Below, piece by piece: positions 293-16,955 of a stretch of 16,955 bases of DNA. The stretch is from Ramlibacter sp. GTDB taxonomy: Bacteria > Pseudomonadota > Gammaproteobacteria > Burkholderiales > Burkholderiaceae_C. A program made the position numbers and the translations under genes. A model generated the notes under the pieces. It was given only the letters and a program-made list of their open reading frames with translations. It was not told the origin of the DNA and ran no database searches. Where the stretch lies: positions 1 through 16,955 of the forward strand of contig JAJNBO010000033.1 of the NCBI GenBank assembly GCA_021156245.1, read 5' to 3'. Numbering within the stretch: position 1 is the first letter of the stretch; every line of letters starts with the position of its first letter.

Positions 293-324
293 GTTGGGTC
301 CTCCCCCGTGGAATCCAGCTCGAC

Positions 325-330
325 AGTGTA
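325..330 (-). promoter_or_regulatory. Candidate -10 box for the secreted-protein gene
   Basis: On the minus strand TACACT lies 33 bases ahead of the ATG at 292 and is a reasonable -10 hexamer (four of six matches to TATAAT). No convincing -35 hexamer is seen 16-18 bases upstream, so support is weak. The 136-base divergent gap 293-428 holds this, the ribosome binding sites of both flanking genes, and nothing else I can support. Confidence 0.3.
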
Positions 331-428
331 GCGGCGGCCATGCGGCTTGCGCATAGTCTTGCGGCCAAAAGGCATTGGCGCGGCGGCGGCGAGGCCCGTA
401 CAGTCCATTGGCCCAGGAGAACGACAAC

Positions 429-3400
429 ATGGCCTCTGCCGAAGCGAAGCGCGCGGAGCGCATTGCCCCCATCACGGCGCTCGGCGCCGCGCGGAAGGTG
501 AAAACGCCGCTGCCGCTGGACGAATTCGCCAGTGAGTACTTCCGCCAGGTGGACGTGGAGGACCTGGAGGAGCGCACGCCCGAAGACCTGCTCGGCGCCC
601 TGCTGTCGCACGGCCAGTTCGGCCAACAGCGCAACCCGCGCACGGCCAAGGTGCGGGTCCTGAGCCCGACGCCGGGGGAGGATGGGTGGGGTTCCCGCCA
701 CACCATCGTGCAGGTCGTCAACGACGACATGCCCTTCCTGGTGGATTCCGTGTCGATGGAAATCGCGCGCCAGGGCCTCACGCTGCACCTGATCGTGCAT
801 CCCATCTTCGCGGTGCAGCGGGATGCGGCGGGCGTGCTGCAGTCCCTGGCCGCGCGCGCGTCGGCGCCCGAACTGCCGCGCGAGTCTTGGATGACCATCG
901 AGGTCGACCGCATGGTCGACCCGGCGCGGCGCGCAGCGCTGGTGGCAGGCATCGAGCGGGTGCTCGCCGACGTCCGGGCGGCGGTGGAGGACTGGAAGCC
1001 GATGCTGGCCCGCCTGCAGGAGGTGACCTCCGCGCTGGCCAGCGTGCCGGCCGGCGTGGGCGCCGAGGAGGCGGCCGAAAGCCAGGCCTTCCTGCAATGG
1101 ATCGCCGACGAACACATCACCTTGCTGGGCTACCGGCAGCATGACCTGGTGGAAGACGGCGGCGAGCTCCTGCTCAAGCCCGTCGCAGGCAGCGGCCTCG
1201 GCCTGCTGCGCGACGGCGCGGCGACGCCGCCCTCGGCGAGCTTCGCCGCCCTGCCACCGGCGGCGCGCGCCCTCGCCCGCACCGCGTCGCCGGTGCTGGT
1301 GGTCACCAAGGCCAACACCCGCTCCACCGTGCACCGCGACGGCTACACCGACTACGTCGGCGTCAAGCGCTTCGACGCGAGCGGGCGCGTGGTCGGCGAG
1401 CATCGCTTCATCGGCCTGTTCACGTCGACCGCATACGCATCGCGCGTGTCCGAGACCCCGCTGCTGCGGCGCAAAGTGGCGGCGATCGCGCAGCGCGCCG
1501 GCTTCGCCCCCGGCGGCCACCTGGCCAAGGCGCTGGAACACACGCTGGAGACCTTTCCCCGTGACGACCTGTTCCAGATCCCTCTAGACGAGCTGTACGA
1601 CACCGCGCTGGGCATCCTGGCGCTGGGCGAGCGGCACCGCTTGCGCCTGTTCGCCTGGAAGGATCCGTTCGACCGTTTCGTGTCCTGCCTGCTGTTCATG
1701 CCGCGTGACGCCTTCTCGACGCAGCTGCGGCTGAAGTTCCAGCAAGTGCTGCTGCAGGCGCTGGGCGGAACGCAGATCGACTTCGACGTCCTGCTGTCGG
1801 GCACCAAGCTCGCGCGCGTGCATTTCATCGTGCGTATCGCGCCTGGCCCCATCCCCGCCTTCGACCCGAAGGACCTGGAGCGGCGCCTGGCCAGCGTGGC
1901 GCGGCGCTGGGAAGACGAGCTGCGCGACGCGCTGGTGGAGAGCGACGGCGAGGCGGCGGGCCTGGAGCTGGACCGCCGCTTCAACACCGCGTTTCCCGTC
2001 GCGTATCGCGAACGCGTGCCGGCGCGCGCCGCGGTGCACGACATCCGCAAGATCGAATCGCTCGGTCCCGCGCAGCCGCTGGCGCTGGCCTTGTACTGGC
2101 CGCTTGGCGCGCCCGAGGGCAGCCTGGGCCTGAAGGTGTACCGCCGCGGTGCGCCCGTGATCCTGTCCGACAGCCTGCCGATGCTGGAGCGCATGGGCGT
2201 GCGCGTGCTGGCCGAGGACAACCATCGCATCGAGCTCGGAGCGGCCGACCAGACGGTGTGGCTGCACGACTTCACGCTGCAGGCGCAACCCAGCGCCGAC
2301 ATCGAACCGCAGGCCCTGGCCCGCCTGTTCGAGGACGCCTTCGCCCGCGTGTTCCACGGCGAAGTGGAGAACGACGGCTTCAACCGGCTGGTGCTGCTGG
2401 CGGGACTGTCGGCGGAAGAGATCGTGGTGCTCCGGGCCTACGCCAAATACCTCAAGCAGGTCGGCTTCGCGCAGTCGCAGGCGACGATCACGGCCACCCT
2501 GGCTGCGCATCCGCGCATCGCCCGCATGCTGGTGTCGCTGTTCCGCCTGCGCTTCGACCCGGCGAAGCACGACGAAGCAGGCGCGCAGTCGCAGGTGAAT
2601 GCGCTGGAGCAGGCGCTGGACAAGGTCAGCAACCTGTCGGAAGACCGGGTGCTGCGGCAGCTGCTGGCGCTGGTGCAGGCGACGCTGCGCACCAACCACT
2701 GGCGCACCGGCGTGGGCGCGAGCGGGGCGCCCGGACCCCGCCGTCCCTTCCTGAGCTTCAAGCTCGACTCGCGCCAGGTGCCGGGGCTGCCGGAGCCGCG
2801 CCCGCTGTACGAGATCTGGGTGTACTCGCCGCGCTTCGAAGGCATCCACCTGCGCGGCGGCAAGGTCGCGCGCGGCGGCCTGCGCTGGTCCGACCGGCCG
2901 GACGACTTCCGCACCGAGGTGCTCGGGCTGGTGAAGGCGCAGATGGTGAAGAACACCGTCATCGTCCCGGTCGGTTCCAAGGGTGGCTTCGTGCTGAAGA
3001 AGGCGCCGCCCGCGAGCGACCGTGAAGCCTTCATGAAGGAAGGCGTGGCCTGCTACCAGGATTACCTGCGGGGCCTGCTGGACGTCACGGACAACCTGGT
3101 GGCGGGCAAGCCGGTGCCGCCGCCGCAGGTGGTGCGCGTCGACGGCGACGACCCCTACCTCGTGGTGGCGGCCGACAAGGGCACGGCCAGCTTTTCCGAT
3201 TTCGCCAACGCGATCAGCGCCGAATACGGCCACTGGCTCGGCGACGCCTTTGCCTCCGGCGGCAGCCAGGGCTACGACCACAAGGCAATGGGCATCACGG
3301 CGCGGGGCGCGTGGGAAAGCGTCAAGCGCCACTTCCGCGAGCTGGGCCTGGACACGCAGTCCACCGACTTCACGGTGGTCGGCATCGGCGACATGTCGGG

Positions 3401-5237
3401 CGACGTGTTCGGCAACGGCATGCTGCTGTCGAAACACATCCGCCTGCTCGCGGCCTTCGACCATCGCCACATCTTCATCGACCCGAACCCGGACGCGCAG
3501 GCCTCGTTCGCGGAACGGGAGCGCCTGTTCCAGTTGCCCCGCTCGTCGTGGGCGGACTACGAACCGAAGCTGATCTCCGAGGGCGGCGGCATCTGGGCGC
3601 GCTCGGAAAAGTCGGTGCCGCTGTCGCCACAGGCGCGTGCCGCGCTGGGCATCGAGGCCGAGCAGCTGGCGCCCACGGAGCTGGTGAACGCGATCCTCAA
3701 GGCGCCGGTGGACCTGCTGTACAACGGCGGCATCGGCACCTACGTCAAGGCGTCGACCGAATCGCACGCCGACGTGGGCGACCGCGCCAACGACGCGGTG
3801 CGCATCAACGGCGGCGAGCTGCGCTGCAAGGTGGTCGGCGAAGGCGGCAACCTGGGCTTCACGCAGCGCGGACGCATCGAGGCTGCCCTGGCCGGGGTGA
3901 AACTGAACACCGACGCCATCGACAACTCCGCGGGCGTGGACACCTCCGACCACGAGGTCAACATCAAGATCCTGCTGGGGCTCGCGGTCGCCGACGGCGA
4001 GCTGACGGAGAAGCAGCGCAACACGCTGCTGCCGCAGATGACCGACCAGGTGGCGGGGCTGGTGCTGCGCGACAACTACTTCCAGACGCAGGCACTGTCC
4101 ATCGGCGGTCGCCTGGCGCCGCGCTTGCTTCAGGAGCAGGCCCGCTTCATCCGCTTCCTGGAAAAGAAGGGCGAACTGAATCGCGCCATCGAGTTCCTGC
4201 CGTCCGACGAGGCCATCGCGGACCGCAAGCTGCGAGGGCTGGGCCTGACCAGCCCCGAGCTGGCGGTGCTGCTCGCGTACAGCAAGATGTGGCTGAACGA
4301 CGAGCTGATCGCGTCGGACCTGCCGGAGGATCCGTGGGTGGCCACCGCGCTGGAGCGCTACTTCCCGACGCAGCTGAAGGAAAAATTCGCGGCGTACGTC
4401 CCGCGCCATCCGCTCAAGCGCGAGATCATCGCCACGCACGTCCTGAACAGCATGGTCAACCGGGTCGGCCCGACCTTCGTCCATCGCCTCGGGGAGATCA
4501 CGGGCGCCACGGCGCCCCAGGTCGTGCGCGCCTACCTGGCAAGCCGCGAGGTGTTCGGGCTGGTGGCGCTGTGGCAGCAGATCGAGGCGCTGGACAGCCG
4601 CGTGCCCGACCAGGTGCAGGCCGAGATGGTCATCACGCTGCGCGGATTGATCGCGCGCGCCACCACCTGGTTCCTGCGCTCGCGCCGCCTGCTGGAGCCC
4701 ACGCAGCAGCTGGTGGAGCGCTTCGCCCCCGCGGTGCAGGCCTTGCGCGCGCACCGGGAGGCGTCCGCGGCGCTGTCCCCTCGCGCCACGCCCTGGGTCG
4801 AGGCCGGCGTGCCCGAGGCGCTGGCGCGGATGGTCGATGGTTCGGAAACCTGGTTCAACGCCCTGGACATCGCGGAGATCGCCGAAGGCAGCAAGCACCC
4901 GCTGGAGCTCACGGCGCAGGTGCACGCCGGCGTCGGCGACCGGCTGGGGCTGGAGCGCATGCGGCAGCAGATCGAGCTGCTGCCGGCGGACAGCTTCTGG
5001 GCCAGCCTGGCGAAGCTCGCGCTGTCCGATGACCTCACCGACCTGCAGCGCTCCATCGCGCTCCAGGCCGTGAGCCACCACCAGGGTGACGCAGGCCGCG
5101 TGCTGGACCAGTGGGAGCAGGGCAACCGCCAGTCGTTGGAGCGCGCGCGGCGCCTGCTCGCGGAGCTGCAGGAGACGCCGGGCAGCGACCTGGCGATGCT
5201 GTCGGTGGCGCTGCGGGAGCTGCGCAACCTCGTTTAG
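429..5237 (+). CDS. gdhB: NAD-dependent glutamate dehydrogenase, large (~180 kDa) class
   Basis: Oxidatively deaminates L-glutamate to 2-oxoglutarate and ammonium with NAD+, a catabolic link between amino acids and the TCA cycle in the cytoplasm. At 1602 residues it has the usual length of the large bacterial GDH family (Bac_GDH). The long N-terminal half carries ACT-like regulatory segments, for example around residues 95-130 (VNDDMPFLVDSVSMEI). The catalytic core follows: GGLRWSDRP at about 816-824, the glutamate-site lysines in AQMVKNT (K841) and PVGSKGG (K851), the dinucleotide-binding GIGDMSGDVFGNG at about 985-997, and VGEGGNLGFTQRGRIE near 1136. A helical C-terminal domain completes it. 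The ATG at 429 is chosen because AGGAGA (415-420) stands eight bases ahead; an in-frame TTG at 375 has no such site. No frameshift or missing core residue is seen. The SPFH gene starts 32 bases after the stop. Family assignment is firm; the symbol follows Pseudomonas usage. Confidence 0.96.
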   Translation: MASAEAKRAERIAPITALGAARKVKTPLPLDEFASEYFRQVDVEDLEERTPEDLLGALLSHGQFGQQRNPRTAKVRVLSPTPGEDGWGSRHTIVQVVNDDMPFLVDSVSMEIARQGLTLHLIVHPIFAVQRDAAGVLQSLAARASAPELPRESWMTIEVDRMVDPARRAALVAGIERVLADVRAAVEDWKPMLARLQEVTSALASVPAGVGAEEAAESQAFLQWIADEHITLLGYRQHDLVEDGGELLLKPVAGSGLGLLRDGAATPPSASFAALPPAARALARTASPVLVVTKANTRSTVHRDGYTDYVGVKRFDASGRVVGEHRFIGLFTSTAYASRVSETPLLRRKVAAIAQRAGFAPGGHLAKALEHTLETFPRDDLFQIPLDELYDTALGILALGERHRLRLFAWKDPFDRFVSCLLFMPRDAFSTQLRLKFQQVLLQALGGTQIDFDVLLSGTKLARVHFIVRIAPGPIPAFDPKDLERRLASVARRWEDELRDALVESDGEAAGLELDRRFNTAFPVAYRERVPARAAVHDIRKIESLGPAQPLALALYWPLGAPEGSLGLKVYRRGAPVILSDSLPMLERMGVRVLAEDNHRIELGAADQTVWLHDFTLQAQPSADIEPQALARLFEDAFARVFHGEVENDGFNRLVLLAGLSAEEIVVLRAYAKYLKQVGFAQSQATITATLAAHPRIARMLVSLFRLRFDPAKHDEAGAQSQVNALEQALDKVSNLSEDRVLRQLLALVQATLRTNHWRTGVGASGAPGPRRPFLSFKLDSRQVPGLPEPRPLYEIWVYSPRFEGIHLRGGKVARGGLRWSDRPDDFRTEVLGLVKAQMVKNTVIVPVGSKGGFVLKKAPPASDREAFMKEGVACYQDYLRGLLDVTDNLVAGKPVPPPQVVRVDGDDPYLVVAADKGTASFSDFANAISAEYGHWLGDAFASGGSQGYDHKAMGITARGAWESVKRHFRELGLDTQSTDFTVVGIGDMSGDVFGNGMLLSKHIRLLAAFDHRHIFIDPNPDAQASFAERERLFQLPRSSWADYEPKLISEGGGIWARSEKSVPLSPQARAALGIEAEQLAPTELVNAILKAPVDLLYNGGIGTYVKASTESHADVGDRANDAVRINGGELRCKVVGEGGNLGFTQRGRIEAALAGVKLNTDAIDNSAGVDTSDHEVNIKILLGLAVADGELTEKQRNTLLPQMTDQVAGLVLRDNYFQTQALSIGGRLAPRLLQEQARFIRFLEKKGELNRAIEFLPSDEAIADRKLRGLGLTSPELAVLLAYSKMWLNDELIASDLPEDPWVATALERYFPTQLKEKFAAYVPRHPLKREIIATHVLNSMVNRVGPTFVHRLGEITGATAPQVVRAYLASREVFGLVALWQQIEALDSRVPDQVQAEMVITLRGLIARATTWFLRSRRLLEPTQQLVERFAPAVQALRAHREASAALSPRATPWVEAGVPEALARMVDGSETWFNALDIAEIAEGSKHPLELTAQVHAGVGDRLGLERMRQQIELLPADSFWASLAKLALSDDLTDLQRSIALQAVSHHQGDAGRVLDQWEQGNRQSLERARRLLAELQETPGSDLAMLSVALRELRNLV

Positions 5238-5238
5238 C

Positions 5239-5244
5239 TATCAT
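5239..5244 (+). promoter_or_regulatory. Candidate -10 box ahead of the SPFH-led operon
   Basis: TATCAT (one mismatch to TATAAT) lies in an unusually AT-rich patch directly after the gdhB stop codon and 25 bases ahead of the SPFH start. A start site near 5251 would leave a leader of about 19 bases carrying the GAGGAG ribosome binding site (5259-5264). No good -35 hexamer is visible, so read-through from gdhB or an activator-dependent promoter are alternatives. Confidence 0.25.
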
Positions 5245-5269
5245 CCGGATTCACTCCCGAGGAGCGGCC

Positions 5270-6190
5270 ATGGCACTGATGGATTTCATCAAGAAGCAGT
5301 TCATCGACATCATCCAGTGGACGGAGGACAGCGAAGGCACGCTGTCCTGGCGCTTCCCGATGGCGGACATGGAAATCCAGTACGGCGCGGCGCTCGTCGT
5401 GCGCGCTTCGCAAATGGCGGTGTTCGTCAACGAGGGGAAGGTGGCGGACGTGTTCGGCCCCGGCACGCACAAGCTCACCACCCAGACCATCCCGGTCCTG
5501 ACGTACCTCAAGAACTGGGACAAGCTGTTCCAGTCGCCGTTCAAGAGCGACGTCTACTTCTTCAGCACGCGCCAGCAGGTGGACCAGCGCTGGGGCACGC
5601 CGCAGCCGATCACCATCCGCGACAAGGACTTCGGCGCGGTGCGCCTGCGCGCCTTCGGCAACTACAGCTACAGCATCGCCGACCCGGGCGCCTTCCACAC
5701 GCGCATCTCCGGAACGCGCGAGCGCTATACGGTCGACGAGCTCGACGGCCAGCTGCGCGGGCTGGTGCTGCAGCACATCTCCGACGCCATCGCGCAGAGC
5801 GGCATGCCCTTCCTGGACCTGGCGGCCAACCAGATCGAGTTCGCCAACGCCTTGCAGAAGGAACTGGCGCCGGCCTTCGCGGAGATCGGCCTCACGCTCG
5901 AAGGCATGACGGTGCAGAACCTGTCGCTGCCCGACGAACTGCAGAAGCTGCTGGACCAGCGCATCGGCATGGGCATGGTCGGCAACGACATGGGCAACCT
6001 GCAGAAAGGCCTGCAGCCGGCGCCCGCGCAGGAAGCCGCGTCGGCGGCAAGCGCCCCGGCCGCGGCGGCCGTGCGTCCGGAGGACGTGATGGCCACGCTC
6101 GAGAAACTTGGCGAGCTCAAGGCCAAGGGCATCCTGACGCAGGAAGAGTTCGACGCCAAGAAGGCGGAGCTGCTCAAGAAACTCGTGTAA
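5270..6190 (+). CDS. SPFH-domain protein with C-terminal SHOCT domain
   Basis: A 306-residue protein of the SPFH (stomatin/prohibitin/flotillin-like) group often labelled 'virion core protein-like' or YdjI-type. Residues about 30-235 hold the SPFH-like domain: VVRASQMAVFVNEGKVADVFGPGTHKL at 43-69 is the typical opening, followed by NYSYSIADPGAF around 131-142. An Ala/Pro-rich linker (249-269) leads to a SHOCT domain at 276-305 (LEKLGELKAKGILTQEEFDAKK), a short helical module common at the ends of membrane-linked or oligomeric proteins. There is no signal peptide or membrane span, so membrane attachment would be peripheral or through partners. The start is set by GAGGAG at 5259-5264, five bases ahead of ATG. 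It opens a five-gene run, and the next gene starts six bases after its stop. Function is not established; a scaffold for the membrane proteins downstream is an inference from family and context. Confidence 0.88.
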   Translation: MALMDFIKKQFIDIIQWTEDSEGTLSWRFPMADMEIQYGAALVVRASQMAVFVNEGKVADVFGPGTHKLTTQTIPVLTYLKNWDKLFQSPFKSDVYFFSTRQQVDQRWGTPQPITIRDKDFGAVRLRAFGNYSYSIADPGAFHTRISGTRERYTVDELDGQLRGLVLQHISDAIAQSGMPFLDLAANQIEFANALQKELAPAFAEIGLTLEGMTVQNLSLPDELQKLLDQRIGMGMVGNDMGNLQKGLQPAPAQEAASAASAPAAAAVRPEDVMATLEKLGELKAKGILTQEEFDAKKAELLKKLV

Positions 6191-6196
6191 GCCGCG

Positions 6197-7702
6197 TTGA
6201 CGGCCGAACGCAAGTACACCGCGCCCTGCCCGGGCTGCGGTGCCCCCGTCGAATTCCGCAGCGCGCAGTCCACGCACGCGGTGTGCAGCTTCTGCCGCAG
6301 CACCGTGGTGCGCGACGGCGCCACGCTCGCGCGCGTCGGCAAGATGGCGGAGCTGTTCGACGACCACAGCCCCTTGCAGCTGATGGCGCGCGGCAGCTGG
6401 CAGGGCAAGGACTTCACGCTGGTCGGCCGGCTGCAGTACCGCGGCGCCAGCGGTCCCTGGACGGAATGGGTCGCACTGTTCGACGACGGCACCAGCGGCT
6501 GGGTGGCGGAAGACAACGGCGCCTACGTGTTCGCCCTGCCGGCCGCCAGCGAGCGCGCGATGCCGTCGGCGGAGCAGTTCCGGGTCGGCGCGTCCACGGC
6601 CGTCAACGGCAAGTCCTACCAGGTCACGTCGAACGAACAGGTGGCGTTGGTCGCGGCGGAAGGCGAGCTGCCGCACCTGCCGTCGCTGAACACGCCCTTC
6701 GCAATGGTGGAGCTGCGCAGCCCCGACAACGAGGTGCTGTCGGTGGACTACGGCGCGACGCCGCCGGGGCTGGCGCGGGGACGCCCCGCCGCGCTCGAGG
6801 AGTTGAAGGTCTCCGGCCTGCGGGAAGACAGCGAGCAAGTGTCCACCGGCCGCCAGTTCGCGTGCCCGAACTGCGGCGCGCCGGTGGAAGCGCATTTCGC
6901 CGACAGCAAGGCCATCACCTGCCGCGCCTGCAACACCCTGATCGACCTGAGCTCGGGCATCGGCGGCGAGTTGCGCCACGCGGTGCAGGACGAGCCGGTG
7001 CAACCGCTGATCCCGCTGGGAAGCACCGGACAGCTGCAAGGCGTGCATTGGCAGGTGGTGGGCTTCCAGCATCGCATCGGCACCGAGCCGGACGACCCGG
7101 ACGAGCACTTCGGCTGGAGCGAATACCTGCTGTACAACCGCAAGCGGGGCTTCACCTTCCTGGTCGACTCTACCGACGGCTGGAGCGTCGTCAAGCCGGC
7201 GACCGGCGCGCCGATGGTGAAGAAGGACATGCAGACGGCGGTGTACCTGGGCACCACCTACCGCCAGCAGTACGCGTACAAGGCGCGCACGACGTACGTC
7301 GCGGGCGAGTTCTACTGGCCGGTGGAGCGCGGGCACGCCACCTTCAACCGCGACTACGCGGGCGGCCACGGCGCGCTGCTGTCCATGGAAGAGACGCCGC
7401 GCGAGCGTACCTGGTCCGTCGGCAGCAAGGTGGACAGCGACCTGGTCGCGCGGGCCTTCGGCCTGGAGGCCAAGTCCGGCCTCATGAAGCGCGGCGATGC
7501 CGGGCCCACGAGCGGCAAGGGTGCGGGCTGCGGCTGCGCGACCATCGTGCTGGTGGTGCTGGCCATCCTGATCCTGCTCGCCCTGCTGAAGGCGTGCGAG
7601 GACGACAACTGGACCCGTGGCAGCGGCACCGGCTACACGTCCTCGCCGCGCAGCGGCGGCGGCTATTCCGGCGGCGGCGGCTGGTCGGGCGGTGGCAAGT
7701 GA
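6197..7702 (+). CDS. Double zinc-ribbon, double DUF4178 membrane-anchored protein
   Basis: A 501-residue protein with an internally repeated plan. Each half starts with a CPxCGAPVE zinc ribbon (C11, C14, C30, C33; then C223, C226, C242, C245) followed by a DUF4178-like beta-rich domain (about 56-195 and 274-425). One membrane span (about 448-466) follows a GCGC motif, and the tail is a Ser/Gly-rich sequence ending SGGGGWSGGGK. Most of the protein therefore probably lies in the cytoplasm, tail-anchored. TTG at 6197 is taken as the start because the frame is closed by the upstream TAA three codons earlier and a later start would remove the first zinc-ribbon cysteines. There is no clear Shine-Dalgarno sequence, so translation is probably coupled to the SPFH gene six bases before. 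DUF4178 genes often neighbour SPFH and DUF350 genes, from my knowledge of the families; no biochemical role is known to me. Confidence 0.82.
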   Translation: MTAERKYTAPCPGCGAPVEFRSAQSTHAVCSFCRSTVVRDGATLARVGKMAELFDDHSPLQLMARGSWQGKDFTLVGRLQYRGASGPWTEWVALFDDGTSGWVAEDNGAYVFALPAASERAMPSAEQFRVGASTAVNGKSYQVTSNEQVALVAAEGELPHLPSLNTPFAMVELRSPDNEVLSVDYGATPPGLARGRPAALEELKVSGLREDSEQVSTGRQFACPNCGAPVEAHFADSKAITCRACNTLIDLSSGIGGELRHAVQDEPVQPLIPLGSTGQLQGVHWQVVGFQHRIGTEPDDPDEHFGWSEYLLYNRKRGFTFLVDSTDGWSVVKPATGAPMVKKDMQTAVYLGTTYRQQYAYKARTTYVAGEFYWPVERGHATFNRDYAGGHGALLSMEETPRERTWSVGSKVDSDLVARAFGLEAKSGLMKRGDAGPTSGKGAGCGCATIVLVVLAILILLALLKACEDDNWTRGSGTGYTSSPRSGGGYSGGGGWSGGGK

Positions 7703-7723
7703 GAGTTTTCATCGGAGGTCATC

Positions 7724-7945
7724 ATGGATCTTGAGTGGCTGAGACCGGGCGCCTTTTTCGGCTCCATCCTGTACGCGCTGGTCGGCGTGGTCGTGTTCTG
7801 GATCAGTTTCGTCGTCCTCGACCGCGTCACGCCCTACAAGTTGTGGGAAGAACTGGTCGAGAAGCAGAACGTGGCGCTGGCCATCGTGGTCGGCGCGATG
7901 GCGCTGGGCATCTCGATCATCGTGGCGGCCGCCGTCCACGGATGA
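7724..7945 (+). CDS. Small DUF350-family inner-membrane protein
   Basis: A 73-residue protein with two hydrophobic spans (about 12-32 and 51-69) separated by a short charged loop, DRVTPYKLWEELVEKQN. This pattern, especially the TPYxLWxEL...KQNxALAIVVGAMALGISIIVAAA run, is typical of DUF350 (YjfL-like) proteins, which form inner-membrane proteins of unknown activity. It is a single two-span unit; many family members carry two such units. A perfect GGAGGT (7714-7719) four bases ahead of ATG suggests strong translation, a contrast with the weak site of the gene before it. Its stop overlaps the start of the next gene (ATGA at 7942-7945), so it is translationally coupled to the aminopropyltransferase-like gene and probably works with it. 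Confidence 0.85.
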   Translation: MDLEWLRPGAFFGSILYALVGVVVFWISFVVLDRVTPYKLWEELVEKQNVALAIVVGAMALGISIIVAAAVHG

Positions 7946-9474
7946 AGGAAGCGGTGAAAGAGGGGCCGCGCCCGCTGGAGGTGGCGCTGCTTGCCTCGGT
8001 GTTCGTGGTCGCGGCCTGCGGGCTGGTCTACGAGCTCGCGGCGGGCGCGCTGGCGTCGTACGTGCTGGGCGACTCGGTGCTGCAGTTCTCCACCATCATC
8101 GGGACCTACCTGTTCGCGATGGGCGTGGGTTCGTGGCTCTCGCGCTTCTTCGAGCGGCAGCTGCCCGCGCACTTCCTGCGCATCGAGCTGCTGGTGGCGT
8201 TGATCGGCGGCAGCCTGCCCGCGCTGCTGTTCCTCGCGCATGCGTGGCAGCCGGATGCTTTCCGCGTGCTCCTGTATGGCCTGGTGCTGCTGGTGGGCGT
8301 GCTGGTCGGCCTCGAGATCCCGCTGGTGATGCGCATCCTCAAGCGCGACGTGGCGCTGCGCGAGCTGGTGTCGCAGGTGCTCACCTTCGACTACCTCGGG
8401 GCGTTGGCGGTCTCCGTGGCCTTTCCACTGTTGCTGGTGCCGCAGCTCGGCCTGATCCGCACCGGCCTCCTGTTCGGCCTCATGAATGCGGCCGTCGCCG
8501 TGTGGGCGCTGTGGCTGTTCCGCCATGAGCTGCGCCGCTTCGCCGCGCACGCGGTCGCCTGCTTCGCGACCCTGGGCGCGCTGGGCGCCGCCTTCGCCGG
8601 CTCGCAGCACATCACCTCGCTGGCGGAGGACCGCTTCTACCAGGACAGGATCGTGCTGGCGCAGAGCTCGCCGTGGCAGCGCATCGTGGTGACGCAGGGC
8701 CGCAGCGGCATGCGCCTTTTCCTCAACGGCAACCTGCAGTTCGCGCAGTCCGACGAGTACCGCTACCACGAGGCGCTGGTGCATCCCGCGATGGCGGCGC
8801 ACGGCGCGCCGCGCAAGGTGGCCGTGCTGGGCGGGGGCGACGGCCTCGCGGTGCGCGAGCTGCTGCGCTATCCCTCGGTCGAGAGCATCACCGTGGTGGA
8901 GCTGGACCCGAACATGACGCGCATCTTCTCTACCGACCCGGCACTGGTGGCGCTCAATGCCGGCGCCCTGCGTTCGCCCAAGGTTCGCATCGTGAACACC
9001 GATGCGTTCCAGTGGCTGCAGCAGGAGCAGGGAACGTTCGACGTGATCGTGGTGGACTTCCCGGATCCCACCAACTTCTCCATCGGCAAGCTGTACACCA
9101 ACGCCTTCTACTCGCTGCTGGACCAGCGGCTCGCGGCCAGCGGCTATGCGGTGATCCAGACGACGTCGCCGCTGATCGCGCGGCAGAGTTTCTGGACGGT
9201 CGCTGCCACCATCGAATCGGTGGGGCTGAGCACCCATCCCTATCACGCGAACGTGCCGAGTTTCGGCGAGTGGGGCTTCATCATGGCCAGCCGGCGGCCC
9301 TGGCGCGCGCCGACCGCGCTGCCCGAGGGCCTGCGTTTCCTGACCGTGGAAGGCACGCGGGCGCTGTTCGATTTCCCGCGCGACATGGCACGGGTGCCTG
9401 CCGACATCAACCGGCTGTCCAACCAGGTGCTGGTCACCACCTACGAGCGCGAATGGGGCAAGGCGCACCCCTGA
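7942..9474 (+). CDS. Membrane-bound spermidine synthase-like aminopropyltransferase
   Basis: A 510-residue fusion of an N-terminal hydrophobic domain (about seven spans, residues 14-220) and a C-terminal polyamine aminopropyltransferase fold. The soluble part shows the family signature in order: FYQDRIV (232-238), LNGNLQFAQSDEYRYHEALVH (261-281), the AdoMet-type glycine loop LGGGDG (296-301), the acidic strand end VVELDP (318-323), and VDFPDPTNF (371-379) where soluble SpeE has its catalytic DxxDP. Soluble enzymes transfer the aminopropyl group of decarboxylated AdoMet to a diamine. The membrane form probably does a related reaction at the inner membrane, but its acceptor cannot be read from sequence. 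The name speE is avoided because membrane-fused members may not make spermidine. The start ATG overlaps the DUF350 stop, and the FAD gene start lies inside the last codons. A SpeD-family gene 3.2 kb past the cluster could supply the donor. Confidence 0.88.
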   Translation: MKEAVKEGPRPLEVALLASVFVVAACGLVYELAAGALASYVLGDSVLQFSTIIGTYLFAMGVGSWLSRFFERQLPAHFLRIELLVALIGGSLPALLFLAHAWQPDAFRVLLYGLVLLVGVLVGLEIPLVMRILKRDVALRELVSQVLTFDYLGALAVSVAFPLLLVPQLGLIRTGLLFGLMNAAVAVWALWLFRHELRRFAAHAVACFATLGALGAAFAGSQHITSLAEDRFYQDRIVLAQSSPWQRIVVTQGRSGMRLFLNGNLQFAQSDEYRYHEALVHPAMAAHGAPRKVAVLGGGDGLAVRELLRYPSVESITVVELDPNMTRIFSTDPALVALNAGALRSPKVRIVNTDAFQWLQQEQGTFDVIVVDFPDPTNFSIGKLYTNAFYSLLDQRLAASGYAVIQTTSPLIARQSFWTVAATIESVGLSTHPYHANVPSFGEWGFIMASRRPWRAPTALPEGLRFLTVEGTRALFDFPRDMARVPADINRLSNQVLVTTYEREWGKAHP

Positions 9475-11021
9475 TCACCCGGCGCGCCGCGCTCGCCGGC
9501 GCGGCCGCGGCGCTCGCGGGCTGCGCGCCGCAGCGCCCGCCCGTCACGGGTGGCTTCAGCGGCGCCGCGGTGGAGCGTGGACACCTGCTGCGCACGCGCG
9601 CCAGCTGGCCCGCGCCGGCCGTGACGCGACGCGTCGAGGTGGTCGTCGCCGGCGGCGGCGTGGCGGGCCTGGCGGCGACGCGCGCGCTGCGCCAGCGCGG
9701 CGTCGAGGACCTTGCGCTGCTCGACCTGGAAGACACCGCGGGCGGCAACAGCCGGGCCAGCGTGCTCGGCGGCATCGCCTGCCCCCTGGGCGCGCACTAC
9801 CTGCCGATCCCGGGCGATGCGGCTCCCGACGTCCAGGACCTGCTGGAGGAGCTGGGCCTGCGCCAGCGCGTCCACGGACGCTGGCGCTATGACCAACGCG
9901 CGCAATGCCATGCGCCGCAGGAGCGGCTGTACTTCCAGGGGGAGTGGCAGGAAGGATTGCTGCCCACCGCGGGCGTCGGTGCAACCACGCTGGCGCAGTA
10001 CGCGCGGTTTGCACAGGAGGTGCAGCGCGTGGCCGCGACGGGCGTGTTCCGCATCCCGGTGCCCGCGCGCGAGCGTCTGCGGCCCTGGGACGGCGAAACG
10101 TTCGCCGCATGGCTCGACGCGCGGGGCTTCACGGATCCGCAGTTGCGCTGGTACCTGGACTACTGTTGCCGAGACGACTACGGTGCGGGCATCGCGACCG
10201 TGGCCGCGTGGGCAGGGCTGCACTACTTCGCCGCGCGCCACGGCTTCCATGCGCCGGGAGCGGAGGAAGGCGGCGAGCGCGAAGCCGTCCTGACCTGGCC
10301 GGAGGGCAACGCCTTCCTCACGCGCGCGCTTTCACGGCCGCTCGGAGACCGCTTTCGCGGCGGCCGGCTCGTGCTGCGCATCGCCGAACTGCGGCACGGA
10401 GTCGAGGTCGATGCGTGGGACGTCGCGGCGCAGCGGGTCGAACGCTGGCAGGCGGCGCGCTGCATCGTCGCCCTACCTGCGTTCATCGCGGCCCGGGTGG
10501 TGGAGAACGCGCCGGCGGCGCTGCGCACGCTGGCCCAGGGGACCCGCCATGCGCCCTGGATCGTGGCCAACCTCCACCTGTCCGCCTTGCCCTGGGCGCG
10601 CGCCGGCATGCCGCTGGCGTGGGACAACGTGGTCCACGGCGACGGCGCCAGCCTCGGCTACGTGGTGGCGACGCACCAGGCGCTGGACCCGGCGCCGGGG
10701 CCGACCGTGCTCACCTGGTACGGCACCCCGGGCGAGTCAGCGCGTGCGGACGTGTTGCGGCCGCCCTGGACCCATTGGCAGGATCGCATCGTGCGCGAGT
10801 TGTCCGTGCCGCATCCGGAGCTGGCGCAATTGCTGACGCACGTGGAGGTGACGCGCCATGGCCATGCGATGCCGGTGCCCGTTCCCGGCGCGCTGGCGCG
10901 GCTGCCCGCGGCGCCGGACAGCCGGCGCGTGCGTTATGCCCACAGCGACTGGGCCGGCTACTCCATCTTCGAGGAGGCCTTCACCCTGGGCCATCGCGCC
11001 GGGATCACTCGAAATCGCTAG
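9453..11021 (+). CDS. Tat-exported lipoprotein-like FAD-dependent oxidoreductase
   Basis: A 522-residue flavoprotein related to flavin amine oxidases and NAD(P)-binding FAD oxidoreductases. The N-terminus, LITRRAALAGAAAALAGC, combines a twin-arginine motif with a lipobox ending at C24, so the folded holoenzyme is probably exported by Tat and lipid-anchored facing the periplasm. VEVVVAGGGVAGLAATRAL (61-79) is the FAD dinucleotide-binding strand-loop-helix, followed by the acidic end LLDLE (89-93) and GGNSRA (97-102), typical of amine-oxidase-type flavoproteins. The C-terminal YAHSDWAGYSIFEEAFTLGHRAG is the usual second flavin-contact segment. ATG at 9453 overlaps the aminopropyltransferase gene by 22 bases and is the only ATG that gives the complete signal; no strong ribosome binding site is seen. 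The substrate is unknown; polyamines or polyamine conjugates are suggested only by context. The 3' end overlaps the convergent pilin gene by 17 bases. Confidence 0.82.
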   Translation: MGQGAPLITRRAALAGAAAALAGCAPQRPPVTGGFSGAAVERGHLLRTRASWPAPAVTRRVEVVVAGGGVAGLAATRALRQRGVEDLALLDLEDTAGGNSRASVLGGIACPLGAHYLPIPGDAAPDVQDLLEELGLRQRVHGRWRYDQRAQCHAPQERLYFQGEWQEGLLPTAGVGATTLAQYARFAQEVQRVAATGVFRIPVPARERLRPWDGETFAAWLDARGFTDPQLRWYLDYCCRDDYGAGIATVAAWAGLHYFAARHGFHAPGAEEGGEREAVLTWPEGNAFLTRALSRPLGDRFRGGRLVLRIAELRHGVEVDAWDVAAQRVERWQAARCIVALPAFIAARVVENAPAALRTLAQGTRHAPWIVANLHLSALPWARAGMPLAWDNVVHGDGASLGYVVATHQALDPAPGPTVLTWYGTPGESARADVLRPPWTHWQDRIVRELSVPHPELAQLLTHVEVTRHGHAMPVPVPGALARLPAAPDSRRVRYAHSDWAGYSIFEEAFTLGHRAGITRNR

Positions 11022-11517
11022 AGGCGGCGATGGCCGTGGTGTCCACGCGGCAGGTGGTGGGCAGTGCGTTGCGCACGGGCAGCCAGTCGGAGCCGCAAGC
11101 CCAATTCCGCACCGGCCGGCCGAGATCCACCACGGTGTTCATCGGCGTCTGTCCATCGCCGCGCACCGGCACCAGGTAGACGTACTTGCCATTCACCAGC
11201 CCATCGAGGTTGTGGATGGAAATGCGGATTGCCCCGTCCGACGAAGTCTGGACGACCCCGCCGTACCCGGAGACCGGCGTGGACGATTCGCAGCCCCAGG
11301 TGCCCGCCTCGGGCGTGCTTTCCATGGTCAGGTAGCCCTCGGACACCCGGTTCTTGCACTTGTTCACCGCCATGACCAGCTCCGAGATGCGGGCGCGGCG
11401 GGAGTAGTCGCGCATCTGCGCCAGGGCAATGGAGCCGAGCACGGCCACGATGGCGACGCTGACGATCAGTTCTATGAGGGTGAAGCCTGCCTGTTTGCGG
11501 CGCTGGGGGAATCTCAT
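11005..11517 (-). CDS. Type IV pilin-like prepilin
   Basis: A 170-residue prepilin. After a short basic leader (MRFPQRRKQAG) the prepilin peptidase site lies between G11 and F12, and the mature N-terminus FTLIELIVSVAIVAVLGSIAL carries the conserved Glu5 (E16) and the hydrophobic assembly helix. RARISELVMAVNKCKNRVSEGY (41-62) resembles the alpha-1 region of major PilA-type pilins. Cysteines at 54, 76, 141 and 156 are available; C141-C156 would close a C-terminal D-loop. The product is expected in a type IV pilus (adhesion, twitching, DNA uptake) or as a minor pilin or pseudopilin; no other pilus gene is in the window, so it stands alone. The ATG at 11517 is chosen over an in-frame ATG at 11541 because a perfect GGAGGT (11528-11523) lies five bases ahead of it. 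The 3' end overlaps the FAD gene. Confidence 0.88.
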   Translation of the reverse strand: MRFPQRRKQAGFTLIELIVSVAIVAVLGSIALAQMRDYSRRARISELVMAVNKCKNRVSEGYLTMESTPEAGTWGCESSTPVSGYGGVVQTSSDGAIRISIHNLDGLVNGKYVYLVPVRGDGQTPMNTVVDLGRPVRNWACGSDWLPVRNALPTTCRVDTTAIAASSDFE

Positions 11518-11522
11518 CGCGT

Positions 11523-11538
11523 ACCTCCGATGGGAGGT
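11523..11538 (-). promoter_or_regulatory. Shine-Dalgarno hairpin of the pilin gene
   Basis: Read on the minus strand, ACCTCC (11538-11533), loop CATC and GGAGGT (11528-11523) form a perfect six-base-pair inverted repeat. The downstream arm is exactly the pilin ribosome binding site. In any RNA that contains both arms the site would be paired. Transcripts from the sigma-54 promoter just upstream would begin near 11531, inside the loop, and so lack the blocking arm. Confidence 0.5.
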
Positions 11539-11541
11539 CAT

Positions 11542-11557
11542 GGCAAGTGCTATGCCA
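11542..11557 (-). promoter_or_regulatory. Sigma-54 (RpoN) -24/-12 promoter of the pilin gene
   Basis: The minus strand reads TGGCATAGCACTTGCC, a match to the sigma-54 pattern TGGCAYR-N4-TTGCW with the invariant GG and GC ten bases apart. Transcription would start near 11531, about 14 bases ahead of the ATG at 11517. Major pilin genes are classically RpoN-dependent under the PilS/PilR system, which agrees with the gene behind it. No pilR or rpoN gene is in the window. Confidence 0.7.
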
Positions 11558-11566
11558 CCCCATCTT

Positions 11567-11584
11567 TCGTGACAAAGCTCACGA
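11567..11584. promoter_or_regulatory. CRP/Vfr-like inverted repeat upstream of the pilin promoter
   Basis: TCGTGA-N6-TCACGA is a perfect inverted repeat with six-base arms, containing the GTGA-N6-TCAC core of CRP-family sites. Its centre is about 44 bases ahead of the predicted sigma-54 start. One arm overlaps a TGTCAC motif (minus strand, 11574-11569) that recurs at 11604-11599, 30 bases away or close to three helical turns; PilR sites in Pseudomonas contain TGTC cores. The rest of the 128-base gap 11518-11645 shows no terminator for pepP. Confidence 0.35.
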
Positions 11585-11645
11585 TTTGTAAGGGCGATGT
11601 GACAGTTCTTGGCCTGCCGGTTACCGTTTTTGTCGTAGCCGAGCC

Positions 11646-13043
11646 TTACGCGCGCATCAGGGCTTCGATCTCCGCGGCCTCCACCGGCACGCCGCGGGTG
11701 ATGAGTTCGCAGCCTTGCTGCGTCACGATCGCATCGTCTTCGATGCGAATCCCGATGTTGTGGAAGGCTTCCGGCACGCCCTCGCCCGGCCGCACGTAGA
11801 TGCCGGGCTCGATCGTCAGCACCATGCCGGGCTGGAGCACCCGGCTGGGGCGGTTCTTGATGATCTCGCCGGACAGCGGGTCCTTGCGTTCGCTGACCTG
11901 GCCCACCTCCGCCGGCTCGACGTAGCTGCCGCAGTCGTGCACGTCCATCCCCAGCCAGTGGCCGGTGCGATGCATGTAGAAGGGGAAATAGGCGCGCTTC
12001 TCGATCACGTCGTCCACGCCGCCCACCTTGTTCGCGTCCAGCAGCTTCACGTCCAGCATGCCTTGCGCCAGCACCTTCACGGCGGCCTCGTGCGGGTCCG
12101 TGAAGCGGGCGCCCGGCCGGGTGGCCGACACCGCCGCGTGCTGGGACGCCAGCACGATGTCGTACAGCGTCCGTTGCGGGCCCGTGAACTTGCCGTCGGC
12201 GGGGAAGGTGCGGGTGATGTCGCTGGCGTAGCCGTCGAGCTCGCAGCCCGCGTCGATCAGCACCAGCTCGCCGGCGCGCACCGGCGCCATGTCGGCGCGG
12301 TAGTGCAGCACGCAGGCGTTCGCGCCGGCCGCGACGATGGAGTAGTAGGCCGGGTACTGCGAACCCGAGGTGCGGAATTCATGCAGCAATTCGGCGTCCA
12401 GGTGGTACTCGCGCACCTCCTTGCCTTCGCGCAGCATGCGGGCGCTGGCCTGCATGGTTCGCACGTGGGCGCGGGCGCTGATCTGCGCCGCGCGCCGCAT
12501 GATGTCCTGCTCGTGCGCGTCCTTCACCAGCCGCATCTCGTCCAGCACGGCGCACAGGTCGCGCTGCTGCTCCGGGCAGAGCGCCCCGTAGCGCACGCGC
12601 GCGCGCACCTGGTTCAGCCAGCCGGCCACGCGCTGCTCCAGGCCCTGGTGGATGGCCAGCGGGTACCAGACGGTGTCTCGGTTCTCCAGCAGCTTGGGCA
12701 ACTGCTGGTCGAGCTCGCCGACCGGGAACGCCGCGTTCACCGCGAGCGCGCCGACGGCGGCCTCCGGACCCAGGCGGTAGCCGTCCCAGATCTCGCGCTC
12801 CAGGTCCTTGGGCTGGCAGAACAGGGTGCTCTGGCCGTCGCCCGTCACCACCAGCCAGGCATTGGGTTCGGTGAAGCCGGTCAGGTAATAGAAGTAGCTG
12901 TCGTGCCGGTACAGGTAGTCCGTGTCGCGGTTGCGCGGCCGCTCGGGCGCGGTCGGGATGATGGCGATGCCGTTGCGGCCCAGCTGGGCGGCCATGCGGG
13001 CACGGCGCTGGGCGTACACGGAAGTGGGCACGGTCGTATTCAT
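11646..13043 (-). CDS. pepP: Xaa-Pro aminopeptidase
   Basis: Removes an N-terminal residue that precedes proline (EC 3.4.11.9) in the cytoplasm. The 465-residue length is slightly above the E. coli enzyme. Residues 1-175 form the N-terminal creatinase-like domain (YLYRHDSYFYYLTGF, 43-57) and 176-465 the pita-bread metalloprotease. All five dimanganese ligands are recognisable: D264 and D275 (LIDAGCELDGYASDITRTF), H362 (TGHWLGMDVHD), E412 (TIEPGIY) and E435 (IRIEDD). The spacings D-D (11) and E-E (23) equal those of E. coli PepP, while about 20 extra residues (380-400, RKDPLSGEIIKNRPSR) lie between the histidine and first glutamate. ATG at 13043 has only a weak GGCGGC ahead. It lies 53 bases after murU on the same strand with a hairpin repeat between them. 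The assignment is firm. Confidence 0.95.
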   Translation of the reverse strand: MNTTVPTSVYAQRRARMAAQLGRNGIAIIPTAPERPRNRDTDYLYRHDSYFYYLTGFTEPNAWLVVTGDGQSTLFCQPKDLEREIWDGYRLGPEAAVGALAVNAAFPVGELDQQLPKLLENRDTVWYPLAIHQGLEQRVAGWLNQVRARVRYGALCPEQQRDLCAVLDEMRLVKDAHEQDIMRRAAQISARAHVRTMQASARMLREGKEVREYHLDAELLHEFRTSGSQYPAYYSIVAAGANACVLHYRADMAPVRAGELVLIDAGCELDGYASDITRTFPADGKFTGPQRTLYDIVLASQHAAVSATRPGARFTDPHEAAVKVLAQGMLDVKLLDANKVGGVDDVIEKRAYFPFYMHRTGHWLGMDVHDCGSYVEPAEVGQVSERKDPLSGEIIKNRPSRVLQPGMVLTIEPGIYVRPGEGVPEAFHNIGIRIEDDAIVTQQGCELITRGVPVEAAEIEALMRA

Positions 13044-13060
13044 GCCGCCATTGTCATGTC

Positions 13061-13080
13061 ATTCCCGCGCAGGCGGGAAT
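13061..13080. repeat. ATTCCC-N8-GGGAAT hairpin (dRS3-like dispersed repeat)
   Basis: ATTCCCGC-GCAG-GCGGGAAT is a perfect eight-base-pair stem with a four-base loop, sitting 16 bases after the murU stop and 17 bases before the pepP start. It fits the ATTCCC-N8-GGGAAT rule of the neisserial dRS3 element and belongs to the GTCATTCCCGC...GCGGGAATCCA family of short intergenic palindromes I know from several Proteobacteria. There is no U-run on either side, so it is not a standard intrinsic terminator. A second inverted repeat (CCGCC-N5-GGCGG, 13090-13104) spans the murU stop codon. Confidence 0.7.
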
Positions 13081-13096
13081 CCAGGGCTTCCGCCCC

Positions 13097-13798
13097 TCAG
13101 GCGGCGTCCAGCGCGGCGAGGCGCTCCGGCGTCCCCACGTCGGTCCACGGCCCGCTGTAGAGCTCGGCGCTGACTTCGCCGCGGTCCATGGCCTGGCGCA
13201 GCAGCGGCGCCAGCGCGACCTTCCGTCCCTGCGGATTCCCGACCGGCAGGCCATCGAAGAACGCGCGCCGGAACAGGCCGGTGGTCGAATAGGTGTGCCG
13301 CTCGCCAGCCTGGTTGAGCGCTTGGCCCCCGGCCGACAAGCCGAAGTCGCCTTTCGGGTTGTGCGGCGGGTTGGGCACGAGGAACAGGTGGGCGAGCTTG
13401 CCGCTGGCCGCGAAACGGTCGTAGGCCGCGCGGGTGAACAGGAACTGCGGCATGTAGACGTCGCCGGCCACGATCCAGAACACCTCGTCCAGCAAGGGCA
13501 GCGCCCTCGCGATCCCGCCCGCGGTCTCCAGCGCGCCGCCGAAGTCCCTGCCCTCGTGCGAATAGGCGATGCGCACGCCCTCCGGCGTCTCGTGGCCGAA
13601 ACGCGATTCGATCTGCTCGCCCAGCCACGCGGTGTTGACCACCACGTCGCGGAAGCCGCCGCGCCCGAACGCCTCCAGGTGGTAGCCCATCAGCGGCTTG
13701 CCTTTCAGCGGCAGCAGCGGCTTGGGGCAGCTGTCGGTCAGCGGCCGCATGCGCTCGCCGCGCCCGGCCGCCAGGATCATGGCCTGTGCAGTGCTCAA
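13097..13798 (-). CDS. murU: N-acetylmuramate alpha-1-phosphate uridylyltransferase
   Basis: Makes UDP-MurNAc from MurNAc-1-phosphate and UTP in the peptidoglycan recycling route that bypasses de novo synthesis. The 233-residue protein is a compact sugar-nucleotidyltransferase: AMILAAGRGERMRPLT (6-21) is the nucleotide-binding loop, CPKPLLPLKGKPLMGYHLEAF (24-44) follows, GGI (94-96) contacts the nucleotide, AGDVY (111-115) holds the metal aspartate D113, and KVALAPLLRQAM...WTDVGTPERL closes the fold as in Pseudomonas MurU. A few extra residues (83-89, GRDFGGA) precede the LETAGGI motif. The start is TTG (13798), backed by AGAGGA seven bases ahead and inside the speD 3' end; speD stops only three bases before, so the two are co-translated. 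Its usual partner kinase AmgK is not here. A mannose-1-phosphate guanylyltransferase-like activity is the alternative. Confidence 0.82.
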   Translation of the reverse strand: MSTAQAMILAAGRGERMRPLTDSCPKPLLPLKGKPLMGYHLEAFGRGGFRDVVVNTAWLGEQIESRFGHETPEGVRIAYSHEGRDFGGALETAGGIARALPLLDEVFWIVAGDVYMPQFLFTRAAYDRFAASGKLAHLFLVPNPPHNPKGDFGLSAGGQALNQAGERHTYSTTGLFRRAFFDGLPVGNPQGRKVALAPLLRQAMDRGEVSAELYSGPWTDVGTPERLAALDAA

Positions 13799-13801
13799 GT
13801 C

Positions 13802-14179
13802 TTAGTCCTCTTCGCCCCGGTCGAGGGACCGCTGCTCGGTCCATTCCGGCTGGAAGCGGTTGACCAGCGCGACCATCAGGCCGCGGGCCTTGGCCGACTG
13901 GTCGCCGCTGAAGTTGCAGACGTAGACGTCCGCCGTCACCGCCTTTTCCTCCGGCCAGGTGTGCAGGCAGATGTGCGATTCGGCCAGCAGCACGGTCGCC
14001 GTGACGCCGCCCGGCCCCTTTTCGCTGGCCGGGAAGGTGTGGAACAGGTGGCCGACCGGTTGCAGCCCGACGGCCGTGACGGCGGCGGTGCACCACTGCC
14101 CCAGTTGCTGCGCGTCCGTCAGCCACGCCGGCTCGCATCGGCAACGGTAGAGGTCGGCGGTCAGGTGCAGGCCCTTCAT
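13802..14179 (-). CDS. speD: S-adenosylmethionine decarboxylase family proenzyme (SpeD-like)
   Basis: A pyruvoyl-dependent decarboxylase that cleaves itself to make its cofactor; AdoMet decarboxylase supplies the aminopropyl donor for spermidine synthesis. In the 125-residue form starting at 14179 ([11 protein letters not shown]), the self-cleavage site is E67-S68 in [18 protein letters not shown]68 becoming the pyruvoyl group. H73 and C88 (in DVYVCNF) are the processing/catalytic residues, with the same 5 and 15 residue spacings as in the Thermotoga enzyme (S63, H68, C83). Other in-frame starts are ATG 14197 and TTG 14221; none has a clear ribosome binding site, and 14179 is preferred because the family begins right before the GLHLTADL strand. 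It heads a minus-strand run with murU (three bases between) and is divergent from tkt. Some SpeD homologues decarboxylate arginine or ornithine instead, so the substrate is not settled. Confidence 0.85.
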
Positions 14180-14242
14180 GGCTTGAATGTATGCCATGGA
14201 CGGGGCCACCCGGTGCGCCAAGGCCGCGCAGGGACCGCCCGC

Positions 14243-14248
14243 TAAAAT
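14243..14248 (+). promoter_or_regulatory. Candidate -10 box of the tkt-gap operon
   Basis: TAAAAT (one mismatch to TATAAT) lies 41 bases ahead of the transketolase ATG in otherwise GC-rich DNA. It is flanked exactly by CCCGC (14238-14242) and GCGGG (14249-14253), a perfect inverted repeat centred on the hexamer. No clear -35 box is seen 16-18 bases upstream. Confidence 0.45.
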
Positions 14249-14289
14249 GCGGGGTTCCCCTGATCCTTCCTTCCCCGGAGCTGCCCCTG

Positions 14290-16955
<2,666 letters not shown>

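Follow-up and report, generated by a model that had tools for sequence, protein, structure and literature searches.

A predicted five-gene operon in a Ramlibacter sp. genome encodes a membrane-embedded aminopropyltransferase together with a membrane-anchored DUF4178 protein whose Gly/Ser-rich tail ends in a lysine (Lys). The operon lies in a stretch of 16,955 nucleotides, here called the window (GenBank assembly GCA_021156245.1, contig JAJNBO010000033.1, positions 1 to 16,955 of the forward strand), and also contains genes for an SPFH protein, a DUF350 protein and a flavoprotein. Because Lys-ended tails recur beside the enzyme in the genomes that we surveyed, the terminal Lys is, on sequence grounds, the best candidate for the acceptor of the membrane aminopropyltransferase. 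We propose, with a probability of roughly 45%, that these genes form a periplasm-facing system in which the synthase domain aminopropylates the terminal Lys of the anchored tail. We know of no established acceptor for membrane spermidine-synthase fusions, and a terminal Lys on unlike scaffolds narrows the acceptor question to one peptide and one mass measurement. An initial annotation of this DNA had overlooked both the terminal Lys of the DUF4178 protein and an S-adenosylmethionine (AdoMet) decarboxylase encoded nearby.

Membrane enzymes of this kind are common: scores above the cut-off of the NCBI model NF002956 occur in 31 of 299 Pseudomonadota genomes and, in a second phylum (that of the Bryobacterales genome G299), in 37 of 199. 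We counted as a partner any protein with Lys as its last residue, at least seven residues from the set GSRTNH among the last 15, and a hydrophobic stretch. Genes were called with a codon-model caller; a plain map of open reading frames (ORFs) was polluted by out-of-frame ORFs in this GC-rich DNA. Short loci (L001, L082-L114 and L145-L146) were excluded and longer stretches were preferred, and the 111 gene-called loci include two duplicates (L021 = L127 and L043 = L128). A partner with these features was found in 99 of the 111 loci; among the 1367 other gene calls, 19 had the same features and 18 of these were the partner itself. Counted by genome, a membrane- or lipid-anchored partner with a final Lys is present in all 31 Pseudomonadota genomes with the membrane enzyme, on at least four scaffolds, a figure reached by searching also for ORFs without annotation and for DUF350 loci at a distance. 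The partner is no more than about 10 kb away in 27 of these genomes, 10.2 kb away in one, and beside DUF350 on another contig in three.

The same pattern is seen in two further samples, to which these partner features were applied unchanged. The plasmid set consists of those 12 of 22 records with at least 80% query coverage, some of them near-duplicates, from Gemmatirosa, Novosphingobium, Burkholderia, Tritonibacter, Ensifer and Alteromonas. All 12 loci contain a partner; 16 of 1964 ORFs show the features and 12 of these are the partner, each of which overlaps a system gene or lies within 27 bases of one. On two Alteromonas plasmids (L225:12503-13609 and L230:12503-13609), the run also includes a gene annotated as a toxic anion resistance protein, and no SPFH gene was found there. 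In the second phylum, where one of the 37 genomes (G299) also contributes L079 to the first set, a partner lies no more than 600 bases from a system gene in 31 of 37 loci, with 35 of 4977 ORFs showing the features overall. Inspection by eye revealed a small Lys-ended ORF directly upstream of DUF350 in five of the six remaining loci, and the sixth is cut by a contig end, bringing the count to 36 of 37.

The tail itself is strongly conserved. The last residue is Lys in 82 of 94 complete DUF4178 gene calls, and setting aside L081, whose last Lys falls outside the tail, and the cut L002 gives 80 tail-bearing homologues; in these, the terminal Lys is invariant (80/80) and His stands just before it in 78. 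The last 17 residues have low entropy and high conservation and the linker upstream is poorly conserved, while the best 17-residue stretch of the membrane helix has a mean hydropathy of 3.16. Where the DUF4178 protein has no such tail, another Lys-ended partner is present: a single-helix protein of 49-100 residues, a lipoprotein of ~300-360 residues or, once, a protein of 571 residues. In the 15 residues before the final Lys, there are 0 Lys and 4 Arg among the 1200 residues of the 80 DUF4178 tails, and 2 Lys and 66 Arg among the 510 residues of 34 further tails from the other classes.

This composition bears on a different role for the tail, in which the complex is a membrane-stress scaffold that recognizes the Lys-ended tail as a signal for docking, sensing or processing, and the enzyme has an unrelated acceptor. 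The penultimate His in 78 of 80 DUF4178 tails suggests recognition, SPFH or PspA is among the partners in many of the loci, and tails rich in Gly and Ser are found on other membrane-stress proteins. But in the non-DUF4178 tails Lys is avoided and Arg is used, a pattern that would suit the reservation of a single reactive amine, and the end residue covaries with the class of enzyme (Lys with the aminopropyltransferase and Gly with the ligase discussed below). We regard a signal of this kind as distinctly unlikely.

The membrane enzyme scores 690 bits on NF002956 (cut-off 472). Its AlphaFold2 model has helices compatible with seven membrane passes and the synthase domain after them, and structure comparisons, which hardly probed the membrane domain, reveal an intact aminopropyltransferase (SpeE) fold with the catalytic Asp pair present; we presume that these two residues have their usual catalytic roles. 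Judging from the distribution of charges, the seven-pass domain is predicted to be N-in, which would place the synthase domain in the periplasm. Four acidic residues (E31, E82, E125 and D150) and one basic residue (R131) are invariant in the membrane domain; T408-S409-P410 is likewise invariant and is unmatched in the two solved enzymes compared. This is the sole clear aminopropyltransferase in the genome, the second PF01564 match scoring 23.8 bits (family cut-off 22.9), and 27 of the 31 Pseudomonadota genomes with the membrane enzyme have no second NF002956 match of at least 100 bits. In genome G377 (L273), two membrane aminopropyltransferases are encoded ~5 kb apart in opposite orientation.

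Could the enzyme simply be a polyamine synthase that acts on a small molecule (putrescine, a different diamine or a preformed polyamine), with the Lys tail serving localization or regulation? The equivalog on which it scores so well is named polyamine aminopropyltransferase, its SpeE fold and active-site residues are complete, and the solved sequences closest to the synthase domain are a thermospermine synthase and a polyamine aminopropyltransferase. However, it scores only 140.9 bits on the curated speE model TIGR00417, below the cut-off of 249.55; in work by Li et al. (2019), fusions of this type reportedly failed to complement an E. coli speE deletion, spermidine being absent; and a small-molecule acceptor leaves the terminal Lys on unlike scaffolds unexplained. 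On balance we consider a polyamine synthase fairly unlikely. An amine-bearing membrane lipid or envelope sugar (phosphatidylethanolamine or aminoarabinose), with the tail protein as a lipid-side cofactor, would make sense of the fusion to a conserved membrane domain with its invariant charged residues and of a synthase domain that is probably on the outer face. Yet the invariant terminal Lys would again go unexplained, and we noticed no recurring lipid enzyme in the neighborhoods that we read, although no search was aimed at one; we judge such an acceptor improbable.

The AdoMet decarboxylase gene lies ~2.8 kb downstream of the operon and outside it, on the opposite strand. Its product matches PF02675 with 93.3 bits (cut-off 25), has an ESH processing site in its translation, narrowly misses the curated model TIGR03330 (74.0 bits, cut-off 75.65), and by its size is presumably of class 1b. 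It is the only such match found in the source assembly, which is 69% complete. AdoMet decarboxylases of this family are present in 25 of the 31 genomes with the membrane enzyme compared to 46 of 268 others (p = 1.4e-12, a value too small since the genomes are related), and class 2 enzymes are found in three more of the 31. At 13097-16347 of the window, the gene sits between those for a nucleotidyltransferase and a divergent transketolase, an order kept in several related loci (for example L003, L004, L009 and L012). In G082, G196, G102 and G270, adjacent AdoMet decarboxylase and SpeE matches fall in frames of equal length (410-451 residues), which suggests fused decarboxylase-synthase genes.

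Conservation of the five genes together in relatives, the yardstick that the initial annotation set for its interpretation, gives a mixed picture. The core does recur, but all five genes are contiguous in just 38 of the 71 related loci with enough flank. The flavoprotein is found in all 71, DUF4178 in 69, DUF350 in 69 and SPFH in 52; 26 of the loci have the decarboxylase. The most similar loci are from Ramlibacter, with a best membrane-enzyme identity of 92%. DUF4178 (E <= 0.001) is found in 20 of the 31 genomes with the membrane enzyme (19 over the cut-off) versus 0 of 268 others; the p-value of 1.2e-23 is again too small owing to relatedness. Novosphingobium ES2-1 has SPFH, DUF4178, DUF4178, a small protein, DUF350, aminopropyltransferase, FAD protein and speD in a single run. 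We considered SPFH as a required part and rejected it, given that it is absent from the available stretch in 19 of the 71 related loci. Across the 111 loci, 63 contain SPFH, 12 contain PspA, none contains both and 36 contain neither.

The flavoprotein has an amine-oxidase fold by structure comparison. Among 49 sequences, the columns for the twin Arg and the lipobox Cys are at least 90% conserved, in agreement with the twin-arginine translocation (Tat) and lipobox signals described initially, although a strict RR-plus-lipobox pattern fits only 30. Flavin amine oxidases (MAO/PAO/LSD1) have an active-site Lys by the flavin, and no column in the 49 sequences exceeds 47% Lys; we therefore rejected a plain amine oxidase identity, in that the fold fits and the canonical Lys column is missing.

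We envision the following sequence of events. Decarboxylated AdoMet would be made in the cytoplasm by the AdoMet decarboxylase, as expected from its family. Given the predicted orientation, with the seven-pass domain N-in and the synthase domain in the periplasm, the donor would need to cross the membrane, perhaps via the seven-pass domain or DUF350. The C-terminal Lys, here on the DUF4178 protein, would then receive an aminopropyl group on its side-chain amine from the synthase domain. Since Lys contributes a four-carbon amine to which the aminopropyl group is added, the product would have the spermidine skeleton: a protein-bound spermidine, the presumed counterpart of the spermidine amide expected from E. 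coli YjfM/YjfC. The exported flavoprotein might conceivably act on the modified end. SPFH, or PspA elsewhere, may tie the complex to the membrane, where the added charge would affect the stability of the membrane or envelope. More generally, we tentatively suggest that bacteria have a dedicated periplasmic aminopropylation of C-terminal Lys on anchored Gly/Ser tails, yielding protein-bound spermidine; this would be an alkylating equivalent of the peptide-spermidine ligase pathway in E. coli, and a use of AdoMet decarboxylase beyond free polyamines.

Several observations weigh against aminopropylation of the tail. The counts, drawn from related genomes, lack independence, and the Lys tail was spotted in the first set ahead of testing the later samples. 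Twelve of the 111 loci lack a clear match to the partner features; no partner was identified in L038 (3.2 kb only) or L042, L043 duplicates L128 (partner L157), and in the rest a Lys-ended partner falls just below our threshold or lies elsewhere. Because Arg is also nearly absent from the DUF4178 tails, the avoidance of Lys is probably telling in the other classes only. The charge bias around the DUF4178 helix is ambiguous (K+R of 1.5 before and 1.9 after), so for this class the case for a tail outside is that no signal peptide is present and that the other classes include lipoproteins. The equivalog name of the enzyme, as noted above, points to polyamines. Neither PF02675 nor PF01536 detects an AdoMet decarboxylase in three genomes, G169 (71% complete), G037 and G057, and the decarboxylase is in the same stretch as the enzyme in only 15 of the 31 genomes and 17 of the 37 from the second phylum. 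The proposal also requires that a donor made in the cytoplasm reach the periplasm. Finally, the flavoprotein, found in 32 of 37 second-phylum loci, is present in 10 of 31 Pseudomonadota loci and 0 of 12 PspA loci; this distribution, together with the lack of a column above 47% Lys, indicates that it is not a core part.

The features of the window are collected in Table 1.

Table 1 Genes and protein features of the operon and the nearby decarboxylase, in window coordinates.
Feature	Position	Strand	Basis
SPFH/Band-7 protein with C-terminal SHOCT, 306 residues; likely inner-membrane scaffold	5270..6190	+	PF13421 (Band_7_1) 1.3e-75, PF01145 1.2e-16, PF09851 (SHOCT) 1.5e-9
Two zinc ribbon-DUF4178 units, C-terminal membrane helix, Gly/Ser tail with final Lys, 501 residues; proposed acceptor substrate	6197..7702	+	PF13785 1.5e-31
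One membrane helix near the C-terminus of the DUF4178 protein, residues ~448-464	7538..7588	+	From translation
Conserved C-terminal tail of the DUF4178 protein, probably extracytoplasmic; terminal Lys codon 7697-7699	7649..7699	+	Low entropy, 80 homologues
DUF350 small membrane protein, 73 residues	7724..7945	+	PF03994 2.5e-15
Aminopropyltransferase domain behind seven-pass membrane domain, 510 residues; proposed writer enzyme	7942..9474	+	Spermine_synth 9.7e-36
Flavin adenine dinucleotide (FAD) protein, amine-oxidase fold, Tat signal and lipobox, 522 residues	9453..11021	+	NAD_binding_8 3.8e-10
AdoMet decarboxylase, 131 residues, ESH processing site; donor supply	13802..14197	-	PF02675 1.4e-26

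The five genes share one strand; 6 and 21 bases separate the first three, and the next two junctions overlap by 4 and 22 bases, exactly as first described, and Pfam bears out the domain content given for each of them; PF13785 matches in two stretches of the DUF4178 protein, and its zinc ribbons are seen by reading the sequence. The DUF4178 gene starts with TTG. No promoter-like sites on the + strand and no terminator-like sites were found across 4900-11700. Upstream, a 1620-residue gene at 375-5270, which we take to be of the NAD-glutamate-dehydrogenase type, stops 32 bases short of the SPFH gene; SPFH has this neighbor upstream in L003, L006 and L009 as well, and only six homologues occur among the 111 loci. 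A type IV pilin-like gene (11005-11541, -) shares 17 bases with the end of the flavoprotein gene, and a small ORF at 2-292 (-; 97 residues by the gene caller) has a signal-peptide-like start.

The initial annotation also offered functions. A membrane-scaffolded system of the polyamine type agrees with the aminopropyltransferase fold, the nearby AdoMet decarboxylase, the amine-oxidase fold of the flavoprotein and the SPFH or PspA partners, but the "polyamine-like compound" that it was said to handle is probably too narrow, since the recurring feature is a protein tail with a final Lys. A role in defense found no support: in PADLOC the synthase domain matched mads_2 only generically (2.8e-15), and the DUF4178 protein had two matches weaker than E = 0.01. 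To say that the recurring families have no defined role is fair, except that related operons have already been described by Ravi et al. (2024; PMC11237479). Their PSP "second major group" has operons that join a seven-transmembrane (7TM)-spermidine-synthase fusion and PspA with DUF350, DUF4178 and a lipoprotein. The paper suggests aminopropylation of other substrates, and a variant of its ATP-grasp group includes band-7/SHOCT and a polyamine oxidase. The word "lysine" is absent from its main text. Like that second group, the window combines the membrane-synthase fusion, DUF350 and DUF4178 in one operon; unlike it, the window has SPFH-SHOCT and a Tat flavoprotein rather than PspA and a CesT/Tir pair, and its DUF4178 protein bears its own membrane helix and tail. 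Because no PspA gene is found in the window by profile and SPFH-SHOCT stands in that place, we file the operon as a putative variant of the second group. Full-text searches, with most subscription journals outside their coverage, found no C-terminal Lys tail beside an aminopropyltransferase among the matches listed, and none of the listed papers on aminopropylation contained the lysine terms. The kind of operon is thus already known; the Lys tail and a testable modification are possibly new.

If the terminal Lys is indeed aminopropylated, a new protein modification would be defined, and it would account for AdoMet decarboxylases in genomes without another clear spermidine synthase. It would also unite two sets of DUF350 operons as routes that place a polyamine on a membrane-anchored tail.

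Aminoalkyl groups on protein lysines are known from hypusine in eIF5A, which takes an aminobutyl group from spermidine, and from the polyamine-lysines of silaffins. The proposed modification resembles these, but they involve other enzymes and donors and no bacterial membrane tails. In comparison with the SpeE spermidine and thermospermine synthases, the window enzyme differs in its seven-pass N-terminal domain, its predicted periplasmic site and T408-S409-P410. Clusters of AdoMet decarboxylase, an MFS-SpdSyn fusion and DUF350 were reportedly described by Li et al. in 2019 (Biochem J 476:2579), who are said to have suggested an acceptor other than putrescine; these share the membrane-synthase fusion, AdoMet decarboxylase and DUF350 with our system and differ in the protein acceptor proposed here.

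A parallel comes from E. coli MG1655 (RefSeq), where yjfIJKLMC encodes a DUF2170 protein, PspA (YjfJ), a DUF2491 protein, DUF350 (YjfL), a DUF1190 protein (YjfM) and an enzyme annotated as peptide-spermidine ligase, and ygiBC encodes a DUF1190 protein and an enzyme of the same name. We take the ligase of these operons to be of the ATP-grasp family; a paper by Pederick et al. from 2023 reportedly concerns it. YjfM ends in RGHWGG and YgiB in SSRSMGG, and either may be a substrate of its ligase. In the 30 of 42 DUF1190 matches that have loci, 27 proteins end in GG and none in Lys, and a YgiC homologue is present in 26 of the 30 loci; tblastn matched no YgiC homologue in the window, nor in any of 110 membrane-enzyme loci. 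DUF1190 is found in 0 of 31 genomes with the membrane enzyme versus 39 of 268 others (p = 0.02, weak owing to relatedness). The yjf operon shares DUF350 with the window and PspA with some membrane-enzyme loci, and YjfM and YgiB are anchored proteins with a Ser/Gly/Arg tail, encoded next to the ligase. In contrast, the ligase is expected to act on the carboxylate of a Gly-Gly end, whereas the window pairs an aminopropyltransferase with a Lys end. In each case the end residue fits the chemistry: a carboxylate for the amide ligase and an amine for the aminopropyltransferase.

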